In this document: positions 587 through 15,500 of the stretch, one piece after another
How the letters are laid out: every line of letters starts with the position of its first letter
Position numbering within the stretch: the stretch's first letter is position 1
From: Effrenium voratum
Taxonomy: Eukaryota > Sar > Dinophyceae > Suessiales > Symbiodiniaceae
Assembly: GCA_963377175.1 (NCBI GenBank)
Contig: CAUJNA010000502.1
Location: forward strand, 269,001 to 333,000
Direction: 5' to 3'
DNA: 64,000 bases
Position numbers and translations under genes: made by a program
The notes under the pieces: generated by a model
What the model was told of the DNA's origin: nothing
Databases searched by the model: none
What the model saw: only the letters and a program-made list of their open reading frames with translations

Positions 587-3500
587 CTCGCGGATACCCA
601 AATTCCCAAAGGGCTTGCCCACCGAACAGGCAAGTCACCCCACCCAAAAGGAAACTTGAAACGGGAGTCTCCTTTCAACATGGCTGTGGGTCGAAAATGG
701 GTACCCAAAATGGAACCCTGGCAAATGGAACCCATGACAAAAACAGGCGGTCGCCTGGAGGTGTAATTTTGACCCACACCCACATCACCTCACCAAAAAG
801 GACGCTCACAGACAACTCGGCCAAGTTGATGTTTGAGGAACGATTTGGAGGGCGTGTGGGAAAAGGCGCCTGACTAGTTGGGGCCCAACCCCCTTTTTCT
901 GGAAGAAAACCCAAACTGGCTGGCGCACCAACGACACATCTAGACACAGGACCCTTTCAAAGGAAAAGCAATACAAACGACTGGTCATGACGTCGTTTGA
1001 CCATGGCCAAGCATAACACCGTTCAAACTGTATGGTGATTAAAATATACTTCTGGTTGTGGATTCTGATTGCCCCGTTCCGTGATGCGACATCAATGGGG
1101 TTGAATAACTTCCGAGCCACCCGGCCCAAAGCAATCCCGCGTTAGACAGTTGAGCATGGTGGAAGTACGCCATTCCGATCCCCACCACCTAAGTCCTGGA
1201 TTCGGGTGTCACAGCGGGAACAAACACTCCGCTTTCTCCCCTTGGCCCGAAGAACCTAGAAATATAAATCTGACCTTGACTCTTTGAAGCACCACTCAGG
1301 TGCTACTAAGGCCTTATACGCAAAACGGTGCCTCCTTTTTGCCGCATAAGGGTTAGTGCCAAAATGGGAGGATTGCCCAGTTCCACTGGGCAGCTCCCCT
1401 CAGCAGCTGATGGGAGTAGGATTGATGCCGCTCCCACAGCGAGGGAGAAATCCTCCCACCTCACCGGATGCCCTCCCGGCATCATGGGTGAGGAAGGAAA
1501 GTAGCGAAGATCAGTGTGATCAATTCGCTCTCGACTGAGGGGAAGACCCGGTTCTCAGTCGGGAACTGCGGGTCCGGATGAGTAAGCTCATCCGCCCACG
1601 TGTTGAAGTCGCGTTTCACATGCGACGGCCCCAACATGACCTGTTGGTCATGCAGCGTGAGCACAATTTCCATGAGGATGGCCGCATTGGGCATCCTGCG
1701 AGTGGAATCGTTAAGAAGGGAGAAAACATTTCCCTGGTTATCACTAGCCACCAGGATCCTAGTGTGAGAAGCCGAGCCGGCTGCACAAAGCAGAACGGCC
1801 CTCACCAAGAGGAGGAGGCCGAAGAGCTCCAAGGCCGCTATCGCCCGCTGCGGGTCCCCAGTAGCGAAGGCCCACGGCTCGCCCTCCGGTGTGATTCTGT
1901 GCTGGAACCACTTAACACGGGACTTATCGGGGTTGGGCACGTCCGAGCACCAGCCACCAACCCATGCATGGTCCGCCTGCCTGCCAGCTCCCGCATCAGA
2001 CGCCCCCGTCCATGGGAGTGTGGGAGCAAACGGGGATGCCAGTGGGAACCTCTGGTTGAAGAGTCTCTCCAAAAGGATGGCCAGAGCACGAACCAGCTTC
2101 GGTGGCCTGCCCGAAGTGGTGCAGGCCTTCTTCCAGCTCCAAAAAGGCTGGAGGAAAGGTTTCGTCAATGGGCACGCCGAAGTAGCCCATTGAATACGGC
2201 CTAAGGCTTGTTCCACCTCCTTGCTGGTGAAGATGTCCCCCTGGGCCAGCCGTTTAAGAGTGGCCAGGATTATGACATGTTTGACTGGAGCCAGCAGTAC
2301 ACAGGGCGTGATTGGGTCCACCACAAAACCCAACCAGGTATTGATCGGGGAGAGCGCCGTCTTCTTCCAGGAAAGCGGGACTCCCAGCGCCAGCAGTGTA
2401 GCCAAGATGGCTGTGGCGTCCCAGTCCGCCCGGCTGCATCTGAGGACCCAGCAGTAGTCGTCCACAAAGACTAAGTGCCAGTCCACCTGGGGGAAGATGT
2501 AGTACAAGAGCCTGAGCACCAGGGATGCCTTCCTCCCCCAGTACAGCTGTGCCGAGGCCATGCCGTACGTGCCCACTCTGTTGACCCACCACCGGTTTTG
2601 GATGCAGGCCACCTGGTATTTCCAGTCTTTAGGGAGCACTTTAATACGCCTGTGGGCCTTGGTGACATCTGCCTTGAGGATGATGAAGGTTTCCCCCTGT
2701 GTCGGCGGCTGCCAGCTCAGGGGTTCCCCCCCGCTCCCCCCAGGGCATTCCGTGCCCGGGGGGGGTGGGGGGAAGGGGGCCCTCCCATCAGGGCCCTCGG
2801 CACCTGGGAGTGGTCCCTTTCCTGAGGGTGTCGATCCCAGAGAGACGTCCATGCCGCCGGAGGTATCCATAATCCCCCTGCCCCGATCAGGCCCCTCGGC
2901 CCTGGGGGCCAGGCTGGTGCTGTGGGGGTCCCTCTCAGGGCCCTCGGCACCTGGGGACTGCCCCTGCACCGGCTGGTGGACATCCCGAAGTCTCTCCTCA
3001 GTGTTCGGGAACGTGGCCCAAAGTAAATGGGGATGGTCCGCCGCTGTCCTGAGCCAGTGGATGGCGTGGAGGCAGTCTCCGACCATCGGTGCAGTGGTCT
3101 TCTCCGCTGTGTGAGCCTGGATGTGTGCGTTTGCTCCCCCTTTTGAGCCATCGTAGATCGTCCTGATCTTGTCCGACTCATCAATCCCTGCAAGGGGGCC
3201 AGGGCAAAGTTCCTCCGGTTTGCAACGGCACCTCTCCGCCGCCTCGGAGCGAGTGAAGGGCCCGTCCACCATGTCCAAGGCTCGTTCCTCGTAAAAGGTT
3301 GATTCGATTTCCTCGGCAAAGAGTTCAGCCGTTGGGTAGTTATCATGAGCCACTGGCGGGGGGGGGTCTTCCCCCAGCCAGGCTTCTCCCTTAAGCTCCT
3401 CCTTAGTGGGCCAAACTCCCGGGGAGGTCAAGGTAGGGTCCGAGACTCCCAAGGGGACCCCCTCTTTCAGTGTAAGGGGGAACTCCCAGTCAGGGTCACC

Positions 3501-6500
3501 TGAGAGGGATGCCAAGTGCGACACTAAGTCCAGGAGGAAGGGTTGTCCTGGGCATCGTTCATGGAGGTGCCTCGATCCTAGGATAGCCCGCAGCTCCTCG
3601 AGGTCGGCTTCCTGGAAGGGGTGTGTGGTGGCACCTGATGCCAGGGACATCCGGACCTTATCAATCCAGGGCCTGGTAAGGGTCATGATCAGGGCGCCCA
3701 AAGTGGCCAAAGGGGAAATTCTTCGAAAGGGGGGGTTGAGCCTCCCCGGGGAAGGTTTCCCCCCCCCATCCCTCAGGGGGCGTGAGCGGAAACCCAATTG
3801 GACAATCGCAACTCGGTCAATGAGGCGTGGGACCCGGAAAGCGGGCAGACATTCGGGGCGGTCCAGGACCTGGTCCCCATGTTCTTCCTTTTCCAGTTGT
3901 TCCGCATCTCCGGCCATCGGGGGCATGGGAGATGGGAAGTCTGGGTTCATAGTTCCACGAGGGCTTACGGTGTCTGCCTCATGGTGGATGTGCCCGTGCT
4001 GGCGGGGCTTCGGGGCACTCTTGCCTCCGGGCTCTGGGCCCTGGTGTGAAGAGGAGGGACCGCCTCCTTGATTGGGTCCCCGTTTTCCCCGGGGAGAAGG
4101 GCCCCCAGGGGGGTCCGACCCCCTTCCCTTAGGTGGTTCCTTAGGGTTTCCCGGGAATTGTGAGGGGATCCGGATGTGCCCCGGCGCCGCGAGTGACACA
4201 GCGATGGCTTTGGCCAGGCCTGCCATCATATCCCAGGGGTATCTGCTGAGAGTCGAGGACTCGCTGGTGCCCACATGTGACTGATGTGTGCACCGCATTT
4301 GATCCCAGTCCTCGAGTGGGAGATCCGTGGCAAGTGTGGTGGCCTTCTTGACCAACTGGCCCAGGCGGCACTGGTCGAAGGAGATTGCTGTCAGGGAGTT
4401 TTCCTCCATCCAAAGCTGCCCCTCCTCCGTGATCCAGAAGGATGAGCATTCCTTGGCTTTGGGCAGCGAGCTGCTCACCACTGGGTCCTCCGGGTGCTCC
4501 AAGAAGGATTTTGGCCCTGGCAGAGAAACCGCCGATCTTGAGGCCCTTGCCAGGCTGGTGCTGTCCATCTGCCTCAAAATGAGGGTACTGTCCTCATCAA
4601 GCTGAGTCTGGGCGGCCTGGTCCAGGTGTGGGAGGCCCCAAAGTGTCTCTCGAGTGCGTCCTCGCACCGGGGTGGGGGCCCCCGGTTTTGGTATGTGGCG
4701 CAGGATGGACCATGTCCTGCAGTTGGGTCCTCCCCCAATGAAGACCACTCGGCCCTGCTTGGCTGCCGTGCAGAGCGCTCCATACAGCTCGGGTTGGAGC
4801 ATGTCGTGGTTCCCTTTTGGTCCCGATCGTAGGATGTCTACTGCCACCACCATGCTGGAGAGGTGCGGGTAGTTGGCATGAAGACAGCTGTCTAAGGAAG
4901 TTGGGTCTTCCTTGCCTGCATAGAGCAGGACAATGATGGGCCCACTGGATGGAACTTTGGGCGATGTGCCCTGTGTCCATCTCAGCCGCTGTAGCAGACG
5001 CTCCGGGATGTTCTCCATCCACCGGAAGGTGTCCCCTCCCGGTGACAGCTCCGTGGGACTTGTCAGGGGGGTGGCTGAAAGGCGTTGGCCCCCTTCATTC
5101 AGCCCCACAGAACTCTTGTGAAAAACCACCGGGTCCTGCTTGATGATGTTGGGCGCCGGAAGTGGGATCGGCTGCCTCCTGGGCGTGTTCCTCGGCGTTG
5201 CGGTGTGCTGCCAGTTGTCCGGCACTCGGGCCTGCTGGGCGCGGCCCCCCGTGTCAGGGCCCTTGGCACCTGCGGGGAACCGTCCCGTCCCTGCCATCTC
5301 AGGGCCCTCGGCACCTGTGGCACGGGGCTTCGGCGTTGCCGTTGTACCAGCTGTGCGGTTGTTCTGACCCCAGCTGGGGTGTTGTGCACGCTGGTCCTGT
5401 CGTCCGCATCCTTGTTCCGCTGAGGATGGCCGCCACCTGGCCTGTCCCCCCCCTGTGTCAGGGCCCTCGGCACCTGCAGGAGGGGGCTCATGTGCCTGCT
5501 TGAGGGCGCTTTCGCCCCCTCTCGCCCCCCCGGGCCCTATCAGGGCCCTCGGCACCTGAGGCCTCCCGGGGGGTCGGGGTCCGAGCCCCTAGTCAACCCG
5601 GGCAGTCCTGCGGGAGGTGGTCTCCCAGGCAGATGCGGCCCGTTGCCAGGATGAGGTTGCACTTGTGCGTGCGTCCGCAGTTGCCCGGGCAGCGCCCGCG
5701 CATCCAGTTGTTACAGAACTGGTTCCCTTTCGGATCGGTGGCCGCCTGCTTGTTACTGCCCCTGGAAGCCTGATTGTTCGGCTGGGGGGGCTTACCTTTC
5801 CCTTTGCTCCCAGGCTTGCCCCTGGACTTCCCCTTGCCCTTGGACTTGTTCTTGCCCTTCTGGGGTGGTGCGTAGTCCATGGATGTCCTGGTCTGCGGGC
5901 GGCCCCTGGAGAAGGTCCTGATCTTTTCATAGACCTCACGTGTCCAAAACAATGTGTCCTGCCTTACCGACAGCATGGCCGCCTTGAGGGTGCTGCCCTC
6001 GTGCATCTGCTCGTGAATCTTCCGCCATGCATTGCGTTCGGCAATTGCCAGGACGTGGTCCTCGGGAGGGGGAAAACGGCCCCCGATGTCCTCCCCATAG
6101 AACCACTCGTACCAGCTCTCCAGGTCCTCTCGGGTGATGTCGAACTGGCCGAACTGTGGAAACGAGAGGACGCACATGAGGAGGGTGTTCCGGAACACCG
6201 CGTGCATTCTCTCGAGCTGGTGGCGAGTTTTCGGCTCGCCCCGCTCTTCCACCTCGTCCTCCCGGTCCCAGCCATCAACCGTGGTCTTCTTGGCGGTCTT
6301 CCATGGCCGTTCTCCTGGTTCCGGGAGTGCGCTTACCAGGTACTTCATGGGGATGAACCGATCTCGCCTCCAGCGCAGAGTTTGAACTGGCGCTTCATCA
6401 GCTGGTCGCTTCCTTGCAGGGCCAACTTGGGTTTGGTGAGTTTGGTCTTCTCCTCCCAAACCCTCTCCAGCTGTCCCCGTTCGCACGAGACCGTGAGATT

Positions 6501-9500
6501 TGGGGCAGTGTCCCCGGGCGTGTGCGGCCCGGGTCCCGCTGTCGCATGTGCCCCCACTCCCATGGATCGTTGAGCCGCGTGAACCACCTGGAACATACGG
6601 GCCGCGATCAGCCGGGAGGTCACATCCGTGTAGCGGTTGTTGTTGGGGGCGAAGCCCAACTCCCTCGGCGCCGTCTCCCTTGCCCGGTCGGGCGAGTCCC
6701 ACCGGGTCGCGAGGTCCTCCATCGAGACAAAGCCCTCATCAGACAGCGTCGCTTGGATGAACCACGGGATGCCCTTGAGGACCATGAGGTTCCTGGCGGT
6801 CTTGTGGAGCTTAGCCACTGCGTCCGTGTACGCTTCGGGCACCTCCTGTGGTGGTGCCACCAACTCATCAGGCGTCGCCGCCATGGTGTGGGTGGGCGGG
6901 GTTTCAGATTCCAAAAAAGAAGGGAAGTGCCCACTTGAGCCAAAATGGTGGCCCAAGTGGACACTTACAAAGAGTCAAGACAAGCGACCACCTACGGTTA
7001 ACACTTTAGCCCAGACTCTTTGAAGCACCACTCAGGTGCTACTAAGCCTTATACGCAAAACGGTGCCTCCTTTTTGCCGCATAAGGGTTAGTGCCAAAAT
7101 GGGAGGATTGCCCAGTTCCACTGGGCAGCTCCCCTCAGCAGCTGATGGGAGTAGGATTGATGCCACTCCCAACGGACGGATCGCATCAGCTGCCAATACC
7201 AACGGACGAGCTGGCCGTTGGGGGGGGTCCTCCTTCCCCGTATGCCGTGTGGTCCCGCTGCCGCATCTCAGGGCCCTCGGCACCTGTGCGTGCAGCTACC
7301 CTGCTGCGGACCCCGGGGGTGCCTGGGAGGGCGTCTCAGGGCCCTCGGCACCTGCGCCCTTCCCCCTGCCGCCTTGCCTTGAGGCACGGGGGGATGAGTG
7401 TCAGGGCCCTCGGCACCTGCTCTATCCCCCTCAATTTCCGGGAGGACGATAGCCTCCTTGTCGGACTGAGTGTCCACGCTCTCGTCAGTGTCCGAGGAGA
7501 GGGAGATGGAGGCCTCAGAGTCCTGTGCTGCATAGGGCTCCACGGCCATCCACGTGTTCGGGAAGGTGAAATGCCGGAAACATCTGGTGCATCCTAGGTA
7601 CATCTCCGGTTCAGCATGGAAGTCCTGCTCCGCCAGCTCCGAGATCTTGGGCGGCCCCGGCCTCCAGCCACAACCCACTGTGACGCCATCCGTGTCCAGT
7701 AAGTGCATGCTGTAGGCTTTGGTGGGACCCTTTCGGGCCGTGGTGGCAATCACCGTCAGTGGACCCCGAGGCGGAGGCACCTCATCTGCAGCCACCTTGG
7801 TGATGGCCGGCTTGTCGGCGGGGATCACATCCCAGCTGGCATGTGAGGGCGGTGTGTCCGGGACTTCCTTGAACAAGGCCTTTGGTGAGGCAGGGCACTC
7901 CACCTTGTCCGCCCAGTCCTCATGTCCGAGGTCGACTCGGACCGCCCTTCCTGCCTCGAGTTGCATGGACGGGAGCTTCTGGAGAACCTGGTCCCAGATG
8001 GAGCACACCACGTGTCGCTTCTCCCGGGTGTAGACATCCGCCGTGGATTCCTTGAACCAGTTCCCCAGGTACTGGCGTTGGTCCCTCGGTATGTGGGCCT
8101 GGAATGCACAATCCGGCATGAAGACCCGGAAGGAGTACCACGATAGTTCCGCCACATCCTTGGCTGGTGCGCCCTGCTTCCCCAAGGCGTCCTTGAGCCA
8201 CCTCAGGGACCTGTCTGGGGTGCCTGGGCGGGGGATGAAACCCGTCCTGTCCTTATTGATCGTGGGGATCAGGTAGTCCATCTCACGAAACTCATCCGAG
8301 GCCCTGAATCTCTTCCACCACTTTTCCAAGGGGATCCACCATCTGGCCCCCGAGAAAGAGAATAATGGGGCGATGAGCGGGACCGGGTTCCGTTTGATGG
8401 CCACTGCCGACGTGGTCTTTGTCTGCCAGGCGAGCAGCTCCAGGGTGTTGCTCGTGGACCTGACCGTCTGCGGCGAGGTGTGCTGCACGTCGTTGAAGCG
8501 CGCACTGCAGGCTAGGTTGAACCTGGCCATCGCCATAATGTACCTGTCCACTGCTTTGGTCAATTCCGGGACCCGGTTCTCCGAGGGGCCCCCTTCTGCC
8601 CCTTGTTCCAGGGCCCAAACAATCGCCCGGGTCGGAACCACCGCTTTACGCTGTGGCTTGACCTGGGTGTCCACCAATGTCTCTTGGATGGCTTTTCGTT
8701 TCGCCAGGAGCTGTTTGTGTTCGTCAACGTTGAGCATGCCGAGCTTGATGGAGAGCCACTTTAAAGTGCCCCACCACTTCTGGAGCTTCGCCGGGGTGAC
8801 CTCCAGCGTGACCGCCTGGTTCATGAGGTGCCGGACGTCCCCGGCCGTCCAGGGGAGGTTCTGGAAGCCGATCTTGCGCATGCCCTCATAGGCCAAGCAA
8901 TGTGCTCTGATGGTCCGGAAACGGGCATCTCCGAACAGGTGGCCGAACTCCTCCAGCTCCCTGGCCCCCATCACCTGGTGCATGTAGGGGATCTGGTGGC
9001 GGAAGGGAATGAAGTAGCCCAGGAGGCGTTCCAGCCACCTGGCTCGCAAGTGCTGTTCCAACGCTCGTTGGGATGTCGGCAGTTGGGTTTGGATCTTCCC
9101 TGGTTTCCAATGCCGCCACTTGTTGGCCACTGCCAGGACATCCGGGGCCTCAATCGATCCGGAGAGGATCCACTCCTCACGGTCCCGGATGGCCTGTTCC
9201 ATTTCCAGTGGAGAATAGGTGTGCGATTGCCTGGCGCCTGCCGCACGAAACAAAAGTTGCTGCAGGGTCTTAGTAGCGAGCTCCAAATCCGCCTCCTCCA
9301 GCGGTTGTGGCTGGGAGCCGAGTATCCTTGCGAGGATCAAGTTGTAGGTGTCCGAGGCCACCAGGACATGGTTACCGTCGGGTGCAATCCCCACAATTCG
9401 TGTCCACGGTCGCGGTTCAAAAACCACCGCATCCGGGTTGGCAACCTGGTCCTTATTGACCCATTCCAGGCAGCACGCCACGAGGATTTCCCCGTCCGAC

Positions 9501-12500
9501 TGCACTGGTGCAAATCCAAGGTCATGCAAAATCAACTGGACCGCGGTTGGTACCCCTAGGAAGGCCGTTCCAAACGGGGAAGGGAGGCGGGGCCTCCACA
9601 TCATCGTGATCCACTCGAGCCCGGAGCCAAATCCCTAGGCGCAAACCCCAACCAAACAACAGGGGGGGGGGCCCCAAAACCCCGAAAAGCCACGCCCGAA
9701 AAAGGGGGGGGGGGGACCCAGGGAGCCTCCCCGGAAAGGGAAAAACGGAGCCCAGGCGCATCCCGGACCAGCCCAAGCGCTCCCCTTTTTTCTCGCCTGG
9801 TACAGGTCTAGGCCTGTGCTGTGCCCGGGGGGGATATCAGCGCCCTCGGCAGCTGTCCTCCCCCGGGGTGCAATGCGAGTCCGTTCCGGATGGCCGCAGT
9901 GCTGCATGATCACGCGGCCCCCTTGGCAATGTCGTCAATGCGCTTGAGCGCCGCCGCCTCCGGGTTCCGGAGAATCAGCTCCCAGATGGCATCTGAAACA
10001 TGGCCGGTCTGGGTGAGGTTGCCGAACCTAAACCGTGGGACTTTCTGGTCCACCACGGAGACATCCCGCAGCGGGGCAGACGGCTCTACCCGGCGGTAGA
10101 ACTCCAACCGTTCCTTGACCCAGCGGTTGTACAGTCCATCGGGCGGCTCGTCCAGCACCAGCTGAAGGATGGCCTTGCCGGCCCGGATCTGGAGGAGGCG
10201 AGTGCCCCTCCCCCGGCGCGCCAGTACCCCTTGCAGTACTTGCACATGTAGCCCCCCCGGGTCTCTCCCTTCGTCTTGGGGATGAGCTCCCATGGAGTGA
10301 CCGAGCTCAGAACCAAGCCGCACTCCATGTGCGCCCAGAAGACGTGCTTCGTCTCTGCCGAGAAGTTCTTCTTCCTGTAATCCTTGCCCACCACGCCGTG
10401 GACGTTGTCCGATGTGATGGGGGGGTAGACGATCCCCTCATCGCCCTTCTTTTCTGGGGCGGATGTCAGGGCCATCGGCACCTGTCCGGCACCCGGGGGC
10501 GGAGGGGTCCAGGCCCATGAGCTTGATCATGTCGGTGGTGTAGCCGAGCTTGCGGTAGATGGAGGGGGCCACTGAGTCGGGGACTGCGCCGACCCACCAC
10601 TGCTTCGTGTTGCAGCGCCAGTTGACTTTGACCTCCGCCAGGGCCCCCGGGCCTCCAATGCGGTCCATGAGGGCTTGGTACACCTCCGGGAACTGCTGGA
10701 GGCTTTCCACCGGGACAGATATGCGCTCATCACAGACCGCCCGGAGGATCATCTGTTCCTTGGAGTCCGCCACGTCCTGGACCGGGAGTTGCATTACCTC
10801 CGCCGGGGTGTCCGTGAGGAAGGCCCGGGCCGCAAGGACCTTACCCATGGCCCGGTAGACCAGGCGCCACTCCGGTCCCGTCTGCGGGAGCGGAAGGCCC
10901 TCCTCCTTCAGGAAGCACCGAGCCTCTTCCTTCAGGGTCTCCCAGCCTTCCAAGCGGATCTGATTCTGGGCCTTGTTTTTCGGGCCCCGCTGTCTAGGGC
11001 CCTGAAGCAGTGGCAGGGACTCCCAGACTCCCCAGAGCTGGCGCAGAGTGAAGCTGTGACCAAACATCCCCAGCAAGCCTGGGAGTGTCCAGGACGAGAT
11101 CTGGCGCGCCCAGTGGAAGTCATCATCCGGATCGTGGGGGGCCGCCCAGAAGATGGATCGCAGGTCCTCATGGTCGGTCCCCCGCCTTGGCCTGCTGGTT
11201 CAGCTCCTCAATAGAGTACCTGGCCCATGGGAGTCCACCCACCTGGTGGTTCCTGGGATGCGTACCCTTTTCCAGCGCCTCCGGATTCACCTTGGTGAGG
11301 TTGTTGGCCCAGTCCGGGACGTGTACGGGGCCCGGTCGTCGGACCCAGCGGCCCGCAAAGATGCGGACCTCTCCGACACGCTTGCTCATCATCCAGCGCA
11401 GGACCGCGAGCTGCACCTCCGGGTCCTGGGTATCCAGGCCCCCCGGGGTGGCGGACGGCTTGTCAGGGCCCTCGGCACCTGAGCTCGTCGCACCAGAGCC
11501 CGAGGCTGGGGGGATGGTGGGCTGCCTGTCAGGGCCCTCGGCACCTGGGCGCGCCGCACCAGAGCCCCCCGCCTTTGGAATGGGGATCCCCGCCAGATCC
11601 GGCAGATCTGTCAGGAGGGCCGCCGGAAAGGGGTTCCTACCAGCGAGATGACCGCCTTGGCTTCGAGGTAAGAGTCCGTGAGGGACGTGAGGTCGTCCAT
11701 GCTGAAGTCCCTCCATGCCGTGGTCGGCTCAAAGACCCCTGTCTCGATGGCAACTCGGACCTCGTTAGGCCATGCACTGAATGGAGGCTTGATGGGCTCG
11801 AGCATTCTGGTCTCGAGGGCGCCCTTCGCTTGTCTGGCCTGGTGCTTTGCCTTCGCCTCCTCCGCAGTGGTCTGGGCCTGGAGGAGCTCCGGTGTGGGCC
11901 TCCCCCAGTCCGCGCCCAGCTTATCCAGCAGTTTCTCGCGGAAGAGGTCCAAGTCCAAATTCTTGAGGAGTTGGCCCCCATCGCCTCCTCCATCGATGGC
12001 CCCTCCTTGGAGGACCGCCGCGGATCGCTCCACCGCTGCCACCTGGTCTGCCTTCTTGGCCTCCTCCTGGGCGATGGTGGTGGCGTTGAGCCGGGTCTGG
12101 ATTTTGAAGGCCTTCACCGCCGACGGGTGGAAGGCCCTGCACTCCTGGCCCTCTTCCTTGTCGCCCGGCAGCGGGGGCCTTTCCCCCATTGGGGCCGTCA
12201 GGAAATCCTCGTCCAGCTCCATGGGGCAGTTCCTGATCACCGCCCGGACCGAGGAGGGGACAAAATCCGAGAAGCTGGCCTGGTCCAGGTTCTCGCACGC
12301 CATCGGGTCGGTGGCCAGCTCGCTGACATCCACCGAGGCGCTGAGCTTGAGGTCGCGGGCCCGGTCCGTATCAGGGCCATCGGCACCTGCGGACCGGGCC
12401 GCCGTCCAGACCGCATTGCCCTGGTCATCCACTGTCAGCTGCCAGTGCGTGCCTGCCATTTCCAGGGTGGCCAAGTTGGATGCCGTGTCAATGGGCTCCG

Positions 12501-15500
12501 TCTTTTTGCCGCACCCCATACACTTCCTGGCGCCCTTCTTCACCCAGGGCATGGTGCAGCAGGGGCAGATCCAGGAGGTGGGCGCCTTACCCAGGGGGCG
12601 GTTCTCCAGCCCCCCGTACCCCAGGCCAGCGCGCTTGCCAACCTTCTGGCCCGGGGTGCTGAGCAGGGCCTCATGCTCATACTTCATCTTGGCGATGTAG
12701 AACGCCTCAATCACGCGCTCCAGGCCCCCCTGCTTGAGTTGGGGGCCCTCAAAGCCTCGCAGGAGCCGCTGGACATCCTTGGCCTGAAGTCGGCGGAGCC
12801 TGGTGGCCGTGGTCGCATCAAAACACGGGAAGTCCCCCGCCATCTGGTCCTCACTGAATTGGTAAAGGCCCTCAGAGACTTTCCCCCCGGCGGGGGGGCT
12901 GCGGGGTCCTCATCCCCCTCCGAGGACGCCTGCGCCCTGGCCTTTTCCATCAGGTCCTGGCGTCCCTGCCACTTGGTGTCGGACATCGGGGGGTCCTCCT
13001 CACCTTCCGCCAGGAGTTCCTCCATCGGGGGCTCCTCCTCGTCTTCCGCCAGGAGTTCCTCCATGGGGACATCCGGCTCCGGCGGGTTGAGAAGTTCCAA
13101 GAACGCCCCTGGGGGGCGTGTCAGGGCCATCGGCACCTGCGCCACCCCAGGGGATGAGTCTGCCATCAGCTCGTCCTCGGCCTTGCGCTTGGCTGGGATG
13201 AGTGGGGCCTGCTCCAGCTCGTCGGCGCTGGAGAAGAACCGTTCGTCCGGTGCCTGAGGGACCTCAGCCGCCAGGACGGTCCAACCTTCTTCCTCCTTTT
13301 TCACAAGGCTTGCCAGGTACTTCGCCATGGATGCCTTGGCCTTCGCCTTAGCCTCTGCAACCGCGGCACCGGCATAGGCGGGGGCGTACATGGCTTTGAT
13401 AGGAGGGGAATGAGAAGTTTCAGATTCCAAAAAAGAAGGGAAGTGCCCACTTGAGCCAAAATGGTGGCCCAAGTGGACACTTACAAAGAGTCAAGACAAG
13501 CGACCACCTACGGTTAACACTTTAGCCCATTGGCACGTTGGCGAAACGCAGGCAAAACGGGGCAAAACTTTTGAGTCAAGGAAGTCAAGTCAGATCCGCT
13601 CCATTGGGTCTCAGGAACCACTAGAAGTGGGAACAAAACTAGCCTGATTCCCGAGCGCATGCACTCCTCCCCCCCCCCCCCGCCTTTTCAAAAGGGGCAA
13701 GATCCCTTGGGACCAATCCAACTTCCTTCCCCGACCAACCCACACATTCTCCCACAAGGATTTGGCATATGTCAAAAGGGAAAACGCCATCCCTGGCTTC
13801 CCATTTAAAGCAACCCCAGGAAGTACCCTCACAAGACAGACCCATTTGCTTCCTCTCCGAATGACAAATTCCCAACCTCTCCCAAACTTTGGCGCTGGCC
13901 GAACACAACCCCCCGGCGCGCGAATCGATCGAGTCCCGACACGGCGCCAGCCCTGAGCATTTCAAGTTCTTAGGCCCCGAAACCCAAGAAATCGCAGTGT
14001 CTCAAGTGAGGAGTCTCGATTTTGGGGACCTTCCTACCCCTCCGAATGACAAATTCCCAACCTCTCCCAAACCCGGGCAATCGCGCTTCCCATGCCACTC
14101 TCCTTCGAATCCAGGGGGCTGCTGCTTGAGCTTGGTAAACTCCTCCGCCGCGCTGTCCTCCGAGGACTTGGTGCTGGCGCCCGCCTTCTCGAAGTCGTCC
14201 CGCACCACCTGGATCCATCGACGGGGGGGGGTTCAAGATTCATTCGAACTCATTCAACTTGAGAAACAGCAAGGTCCAACACCTTGTGGAGTCCCTCAAA
14301 AGGATCCCAAACACTTCATCCCCCCACACTGAACCATCCTGGCTTCCCTTTGGATCCCCTTGGTCCTTGGGCACCGTCAAGCTTCAGCTTGGTGCCCAGA
14401 AGATGCCCTGGAGGGCAAATGATGGGTTCCTTTTGGCACCTTGACACCATCGGCAGGACACCTAGCGAAAAAATTGAGCCGGAACCTTGCGAGGGCTTGA
14501 TCCAAGGCTTCGTTTTGAACATGTCCGAATTTCCGGGGGACCGGGCTGGTCACAGCCTCTCTCCTTTGGCTTCCCCAGTCCCTTCGTCGCCTTAACGTCC
14601 ATGACAATGACATTCCCAAACTTACTCTTAAGCTACGTGGTGGTTTGAAGCCCTCCCCCCCCGCCCGAAACATATATTATATCTATATATATAATGCAAT
14701 GATATGTATATATATATATATATAAATATGTATATATATATATGTATATACATATATGCAATTTTGAGAAGGTGTCAAAATGTTCGCTTTGAGGGACCTA
14801 GCTAAATCTTAAGCACCAGGTCGTGCAATCAGTGTGGCACGAAGACGAAGAAGTCTCCACTCCCAGCCTCCATCATGGAGATCACCCCCTCAGCCGCGGT
14901 CTGCTTGCCCCCGTAGCTGCCCTCGAACCCGGGCGCTGGCTCGTTGAGCGCAGACTTCTGGAAGAAGGACATAGCCTAGGATCCAAGTACTCACAAATGG
15001 ATTTGGTGAGAGGGAAAGGGAAACATGGAGAAAGGGCTTGGTGATTTACGCCCTTGGAATTTGGTTCAAGGGGATTTGCCCAGCACAAATGTCGAATTCC
15101 GCAAGTGTGAGGCACTGGATAGATCGACTCACCTCGTTTGGATTGGTAAGGGAAACCCAATTCTCTTGGGGGTAAATGGCAATCAACCCCTTCCAAACCG
15201 CCGCAAAGCACAAGTCCAAATCACCAAATCCCAAACTTCTCTCCTTAGGCCTTTCTTGGGGCATGGGATCCCAACCAACTGGACATGTGAGCTTGTATTG
15301 CTCCAAGCACCGGGCTTGGAATGGGTCCCGGAGAGGAGAAATCCAAGGGATCCAAGCCAATTTTCTACTTATGTGGTCATCTCTTAGAGGCTCGGAGGCG
15401 GTGCAGAACCTGAAAAGCAGGTTTCGTTCCAAAGTCCGGAATGGGCCAGTGCCTACCGGAGGAACTTGCGATGATTCCCCAACTTGGGAGTGTGGACTCC

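Follow-up and report, generated by a model that had tools for sequence, protein, structure and literature searches.

A tyrosine recombinase retroelement with two probable expression cassettes and a putative RNA hairpin array in the dinoflagellate Effrenium voratum

Results

Architecture of the element

We analyzed a stretch of 64,000 nucleotides of the dinoflagellate Effrenium voratum (contig CAUJNA010000502.1, positions 269,001 to 333,000 of the forward strand; the whole stretch is called the window) and found that it carries a retroelement in which a tyrosine recombinase (YR) and a reverse transcriptase (RT) reside in different halves, each bounded by one copy of repeat A and one copy of repeat B. 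The element is a 12,252-bp unit (1278..13529) with all parts on the (-) strand, and its sense order is A1, a long coding region designated ORFX, YR, B1, A2, gag, a methyltransferase-like (MT) block, RT, RNase H (RH), and B2 (Table 1). We conclude, with a probability of about 0.8, that this is one YR retroelement made of two A-to-B halves. In both halves, we also observed an array of hairpins, which is described below.

A1 and A2 are identical over 113 bp (BLAST E 1e-55), B1 and B2 are one substitution and one 1-nt indel apart (BLAST E 1e-76 for B against B2), and B1 adjoins A2 at 7013/7014 with no gap. An earlier note on this DNA had given the same repeat coordinates and the same A match, which were recovered exactly, and both its B match of about 158 bp and its exact abutment of B1 and A2 were borne out. 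A search for further copies of A or B in the 64 kb yielded partial BLAST matches of 12-19 nt alone (E 0.09 or worse). An ATG is present within about 30 nt after A1 as well as after A2, the YR frame stops about 100 nt before B1, and the pol frame about 45 nt before B2. Judged from this arrangement, each half resembles an expression cassette, in which A would be the leader and B the tail. Separately, a 9-bp inverted repeat (6966-7022; CAAAGAGTC at the B end, GACTCTTTG in A) spans the joint of B1 and A2 and may have a role in recombination or end joining.

Copies in the host genome

The genome searched for copies comprised 1,155,904,702 bases in 3,699 contigs. For each of three boundary searches, the best 40 loci were scored, out of 871 (junction), 594 (A1+ORFX), and 583 (A2+gag) first-look candidates. 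A 351-bp query across 7013/7014 was matched over its full length at each of the 40 junction loci scored, window included, and the intact junction at these loci rules out a misassembly at this position. When the ten best junction matches after the window were read on both sides, all of them showed the order A-ORFX-YR-B-A-GAG-POL-B. These copies are 11.4 to 12.3 kb long, some with internal deletions, and 94-99% identical over the main aligned pieces (86.8% for one YR piece). All of them start with TGGGCTAAAG and end with CAAAGAGTC, and their flanks differ from copy to copy. No target-site duplication was found in the 11 copies, the flanks of which share 0-2 nt; YR retroelements with split direct repeats are not known to make such duplications. 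The element is common in the dinoflagellate genome.

The earlier note had also considered that two complementary elements, one with the YR and the other with gag and RT, are joined head to tail and form a bipartite system, and it had proposed to search the genome for solo A-YR-B and A-gag-RT-B units. Each half does own an A, a B, and open reading frames. Of the 40 A1+ORFX loci that were scored, 38 extend to the junction of B1A2 with gag: in 30 of them, the junction match lies on the same strand at +6.1 to +6.5 kb, and eight further junctions were seen in 600-bp stretches. The other two loci were uninformative (at C21 the stretch stops inside B1, at C2384 the contig ends first). For 30 of the 40 loci, 1.5 kb of flank upstream of A1 was read, and none of these 30 has a B there; no A followed B2 in the ten fetched copies and the window. 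At the A2+gag loci, YR-B1 precedes in 40 of 40 cases (35 of these loci overlap with a junction match, and the remaining five have B1 plus YR 3' sequence in front). Taken together, neither a solo half nor a reversed order was present among the 80 scored boundary loci (two uninformative), which represent the best-scoring candidates and leave older or diverged halves outside their scope; full A-B-A-B copies were found instead. Within this sample, the bipartite system is therefore refuted. Further arguments against it are the gene order kept by diverged relatives, the concerted A1/A2 and B1/B2 variants within copies, and the identical hairpin tip in both halves, and we regard it as extremely improbable. 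The other possibility raised in the note, a single element of unusual order, is supported by the ten further copies and by the gene models of the diverged relatives P0106 and P0111.

Homologous proteins

Our set of homologues consisted of 180 proteins, of which the YR search supplied 99, the RT search 59, and the ORFX search another 22, and the named ones belong to Symbiodinium and Polarella. Profile scans of this set identified ten gene models that join YR to downstream gag, MT, or RT (three YR-GAG, two YR-MT, two YR-RT-RH, two YR-GAG-MT-RT-RH, and one YR-RT), together with three ORFX-YR models and one ORFX-RT-RH model. In no model did gag, MT, or RT stand ahead of YR. Gene models may omit sequence, but the order agrees among them. 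P0036 and P0082 are 98% identical to the window YR and represent near copies of the element, and the YR-gag-MT-RT-RH models P0106 and P0111 share 51-57% identity over the RT. Searches of viral contigs and of prokaryote genome contigs yielded no relatives. The longest contigs of the diverged RT relatives P0128, P0132, and P0136 are near-equal in length (8,939, 8,894, and 8,933 bases) and may be whole transcripts or circles.

Coding regions and domains

A Pfam search with nine open reading frames of the window gave no match at E 0.1, the YR has no Pfam match, and a PDB profile search with the YR family did not yield a match either. In 41 homologues, R370 and K397 of the YR are invariant and H488, R491, and Y523 nearly so; we take these five to be the recombinase residues. 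The structure model of the YR relative P0002 has a Cre-like fold (the VIA list of the YR model spans residues 195-573). This modeled fold and the conserved residues identify the YR of the element as a predicted tyrosine recombinase.

For the RT, Pfam detected RVT_1 in three of 12 relatives (best 4.3e-7). The window pol has no Pfam match, yet it matches the RT profiles built from relatives, and a PDB profile search with the RT family returned weak matches (E 0.016 to protease/RT/RNase H). RNase H was matched solely by profiles from relatives, and pol contains a motif that we take to be that of RNase H. The MT block carries conserved GGPNCRT and EHP motifs, which in our judgment resemble a C5 methylase, and neither the window pol nor its relatives gave a Pfam match for this block. 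A CCCH-like zinc finger was recognised by eye in Gag. ORFX is conserved in relatives, lacks a Pfam match, and its structure model was of no use (mean predicted local distance difference test score of 33.5). The earlier note was right in placing a YR and no RT between A1 and B1, but it left ORFX, the second long coding region of this half, unnamed. Between A2 and B2 it had listed gag, RT, and RNase H and no recombinase, all of which we confirmed, and the MT block has to be added.

The hairpin array

Fifteen clear hairpins and a degenerate one were found inside the element only, in both halves and all in sense orientation. They are concentrated towards the end of the YR half and at the start of pol, and ORFX and the RT contain hairpins as well. 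The general form consists of a lower stem, a 3' ANA bulge, a 4-bp CANN/NNTG stem, a 5' one-base bulge, GCC/GGC, and a three-base loop. The tip reads CAGG-U-GCC-GAG-GGC-CCUG or close to it, with CAGG in 14 and CAGC in one of the clear hairpins; the A-N-A bulge is present in 14 of 15 and is followed by a lower stem that differs between hairpins. A 19-nt motif occurred 15 times at ≤2 mismatches, always in the element and in sense, and shuffles gave none. An RNA model built from the 15 hairpins retrieved these and the degenerate one and nothing else to E 10 in the 64 kb, with no match within the A or B repeats. Each of the eleven copies carries 11-16 hairpins by a simple pattern, with none in antisense and none in the flanks read. 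The tip motif was not found in viral contigs. Rfam gave no match above threshold; a sub-threshold PAGEV match in the YR gene reached 18.3 bits (gathering score, 61.1).

Table 1. Features of the retroelement in the window
Feature	Position	Strand	Remark
Repeat A1	13417..13529	(-)	outer 5' end
ORFX region	9910..13490	(-)	several frames in window copy
YR open reading frame	7268..9634	(-)	tyrosine recombinase; domain at residues 172-543
Repeat B1	7014..7171	(-)	158 bp; tail of YR half
Repeat A2	6901..7013	(-)	abuts B1, leads into gag
gag region	5593..6974	(-)	two overlapping frames (6345-6974, 5593-6735)
pol open reading frame	1482..5588	(-)	MT-like block, RT, RNase H
Repeat B2	1278..1436	(-)	159 bp; outer 3' end
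Hairpin	13110..13147	(-)	
Hairpin	12360..12397	(-)	
Hairpin	11518..11555	(-)	
Hairpin	11452..11489	(-)	local duplicate of 11518..11555
Hairpin	10455..10492	(-)	weakest lower stem in duplex-energy test
Hairpin	9826..9863	(-)	CAGC/GCTG tip
Hairpin	7390..7427	(-)	
Hairpin	7325..7362	(-)	
Hairpin	7257..7294	(-)	
Hairpin	5529..5566	(-)	
Hairpin	5447..5484	(-)	
Hairpin	5288..5325	(-)	
Hairpin	5243..5280	(-)	
Hairpin	2924..2961	(-)	
Degenerate hairpin	2876..2912	(-)	23.3 bits
Hairpin	2777..2814	(-)	
Tip pattern			paired form CAGCNGCCNNNGGCGCTGA; one-mismatch form CAGCNGCCNNNGGCACTGA

Pairing and covariation of the stems

All 15 hairpins form the three innermost lower pairs, each of which occurs in three to five pair types. 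For the first five lower pairs, pairing was highest at a bulge of A plus 2 nt, where it amounted to 85% versus 43-53% at neighbouring offsets; swapped partners reached 46% (0 of 5000 attained the observed value) and random places in the element 37%. The duplex energy was -19.7 with the own partner and -10.8 with the others (0 of 20000), and for 11 of the 15 hairpins the own partner was the best one. In alignment A6, the covariation score was 0.424, compared with 0.112 after shuffling (0 of 500) and 0.09-0.23 after sliding. Over the 180 homologous proteins, the tip-stem codons covary and are complementary at 93 of 138 sites (19.9 expected), and the ORFX and RT sites carry the tip with complementary codons in diverged relatives, too. 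These data suggest that the stems change in matching pairs, as if they were folded RNA under selection.

Several observations speak against such a structure. For hairpin 10466, the own partner gave poorer pairing than most of the other partners did (rank 13 of 15), pairs with two-sided changes are just mildly more frequent than in shuffles (9 vs 7.2; 16 of 500 reach this number), and at the RT site the motif is absent in 22 of 44 relatives. Moreover, no covariation was seen among the copies of the window family (3010 same, 16 one-sided, 73 broken, and 75 gap cells). With no two-sided change within the family, the evidence for covariation comes from the 15 paralogous hairpins and from the amino acids of relatives; in so young a family, this lack neither helps nor harms the RNA-structure reading. 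The idea of one tip code per element was rejected, as P0102, P0104, P0130, and P0160 mix tips.

Discussion

Concerted repeats and possible replication

In eight of 11 copies, A1 equals A2, and the A repeats of other copies differ by about 2-4% from that of the window. Similarly, B1 and B2 of the window hold common variants that are absent from either B of the other ten copies. Such copy-specific variants fit with both members of a repeat pair being remade in one replication cycle. They would also fit a repair of the ends from the internal B1A2 in the course of reverse transcription; a model of this kind is mentioned for Ngaro and PAT in PMC6681497. In such a cycle, each A would act as promoter and leader and each B as 3' end, YR mRNA and Gag-Pol mRNA would come from separate units, and a full-length RNA from A1 to B2 would be the genome. 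The internal B1A2 would then be the template that completes the ends in reverse transcription, and the YR would insert the reverse-transcribed product.

Four findings weigh against the single, intact element that copies itself in this way. A1 and A2 of copy C3114 differ by three substitutions and one indel, which is the main exception to the concerted pattern. In seven of 11 copies, one A run has more residues in B2 than in B1, although other B variants are shared within the copy, and thus part of B seems to escape the copying. If a circle carried two identical BA junctions, insertion in either of two orders would be expected, but one order was seen at 40 of 40 scored A2+gag loci, which makes a simple circle step doubtful; either insertion proceeds via a linear form or the two BA junctions are told apart. 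Finally, both ORFX and gag are split into several frames in the window copy, which hence may no longer be active or may contain sequencing errors.

What the hairpins may do

Dispersed packaging signals are known to vary in their stems. Since the hairpins combine a nearly constant tip with a variable paired stem and occur on one strand in both halves, we liken them to such signals. Tentatively, and at somewhat less than even odds, they may serve as signals in cis on the genomic RNA, and Gag would most likely be the protein that binds them, either to package the long RNA selectively or to fold it. A more specific and somewhat more speculative proposal is that dinoflagellate YR retroelements package their long RNA via an 11-16-fold hairpin array over both halves, in which the tip stems would undergo compensating changes from element to element, so that elements may differ in the tips that distinguish their RNAs. 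We know of no such array in any retrotransposon, and a literature search at title and abstract level found none in dinoflagellate retroelements. Many stem-loops with a recognition motif are spread over the genomes of RNA viruses and hepatitis B virus (PMC3593212, PMC7793301, PMC7612645), and the window element likewise carries many common-motif stem-loops along its genomic strand. The difference is that contacts to coat or core protein were studied in these reports, whereas our comparison draws on sequence alone and the carrier is a YR retroelement.

Regulation of translation or stability of the long mRNAs, unrelated to packaging, would agree with the clustering in the last part of the YR half and at the start of pol. 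This explanation is rather unlikely, as hairpins are also located in ORFX and RT, although our data do not separate it from packaging. Slightly less probable still are selfish mobile palindromes that insert repeatedly with no benefit to the element, for which the palindromic elements of Rickettsia are a precedent. Many hairpins do lie in protein linkers of low conservation, and not all in one frame, and the neighbours 11452 and 11518 represent a local duplication. However, a constant stem would be expected, and the stems differ here yet stay paired; the ORFX and RT sites keep the tip with complementary codons in diverged relatives, and neither the antisense strand nor the flanks read carry a hairpin. 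YR sites of folded single-stranded DNA, comparable to the attC sites of the integron integrase, would explain bulges at fixed places, a near-constant tip, and the use of one strand in an element with a YR, but recombination between hairpins would delete coding sequence and the hairpin model has no match in A or B, which makes such sites very unlikely. No more credible are non-canonical introns with ends joined by pairing, as for the introners of Amoebophrya, which form hairpins with variable splice sites (PMC7789003), because an element copied via its own spliced RNA would lose introns and the 1666-aa relative P0103 runs through two tip motifs in frame.

The array would be a rare case of an RNA structure kept by compensation inside retrotransposon coding sequence, in relatives of coral symbionts. 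It offers an approach to the question of how YR retroelements tell their own RNA from other RNA, as well as a tag with which to find such elements.

Comparison with known retroelements

With its A1...B1A2...B2 repeats, a YR, RT plus RNase H, and no target-site duplication, the element belongs to the split-direct-repeat YR retroelements of the PAT/Ngaro type. It resembles Kangaroo and the nematode PAT1, in which, according to the sections of PMC4157794 on these elements, the internal repeats lie between MT and YR and thus RT and YR occupy different halves of an A1-B1A2-B2 arrangement. The order there is RT-MT, internal repeats, YR, with the RT half apparently first; here it is ORFX-YR, B1A2, gag-MT-RT-RH, with the YR half first and ORFX before the YR. 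Hence, the order of our element is a circular permutation of that of nematode PAT and Kangaroo. The same sections mention no hairpin array. For Symbiodinium DIRS elements, PMC5890265 describes a shuffled order of integrase and Pol. These elements, including SymbioDIRS-Dnmt3, come from the same host group and have a separate YR open reading frame and two repeat pairs, but their repeats are described as A-coding region-B-A-B, whereas here B1A2 lies between YR and gag. SymbioDIRS-Dnmt3 differs further by its Dnmt3 domain; our pol gave no PF00145 match. These precedents weaken the suggestion of a new gene order in the earlier note: the layout is a variant with PAT-like repeats, near to arrangements reported for Symbiodinium (PMC5890265) and nematodes (PMC4157794). 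Ngaro and VIPER/TATE share the split direct repeats and the YR, and Ngaro and Viper are described as lacking an MT domain (PMC4157794), just as Pfam found none here. In Ngaro and VIPER, B1A2B2 are grouped at the 3' end according to PMC8547959 and PMC6681497; in our element, 5.5 kb of gag-pol follow B1A2. The hairpin array is the part that we could not match to anything known.

The layout indicates that a YR retroelement can have two full cassettes framed by its repeats. It also opens the role of the internal B1A2 to testing, as a circle predicts two insertion orders.

A leader-like stretch and neighbouring repeats

Within a long hairpin, repeat A contains the 15 nt with which the dinoflagellate spliced leader CCGTAGCCATTTTGGCTCAAG ends. 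The stretch CCATTTTGGCTCAAG is located at 6934-6948 in A2 and at 13450-13464 in A1. The dinoflagellate spliced leader and leader relicts have been described (PMC6616646), and the stretch in A is perhaps such a relict taken up by the element. Just outside the element, a 42-nt repeat is present at 13846-14072 (93% identical, copies 185 bp apart), and an AT-rich inverted repeat with two 33-nt arms (79% complementary) lies at 14695-14760.

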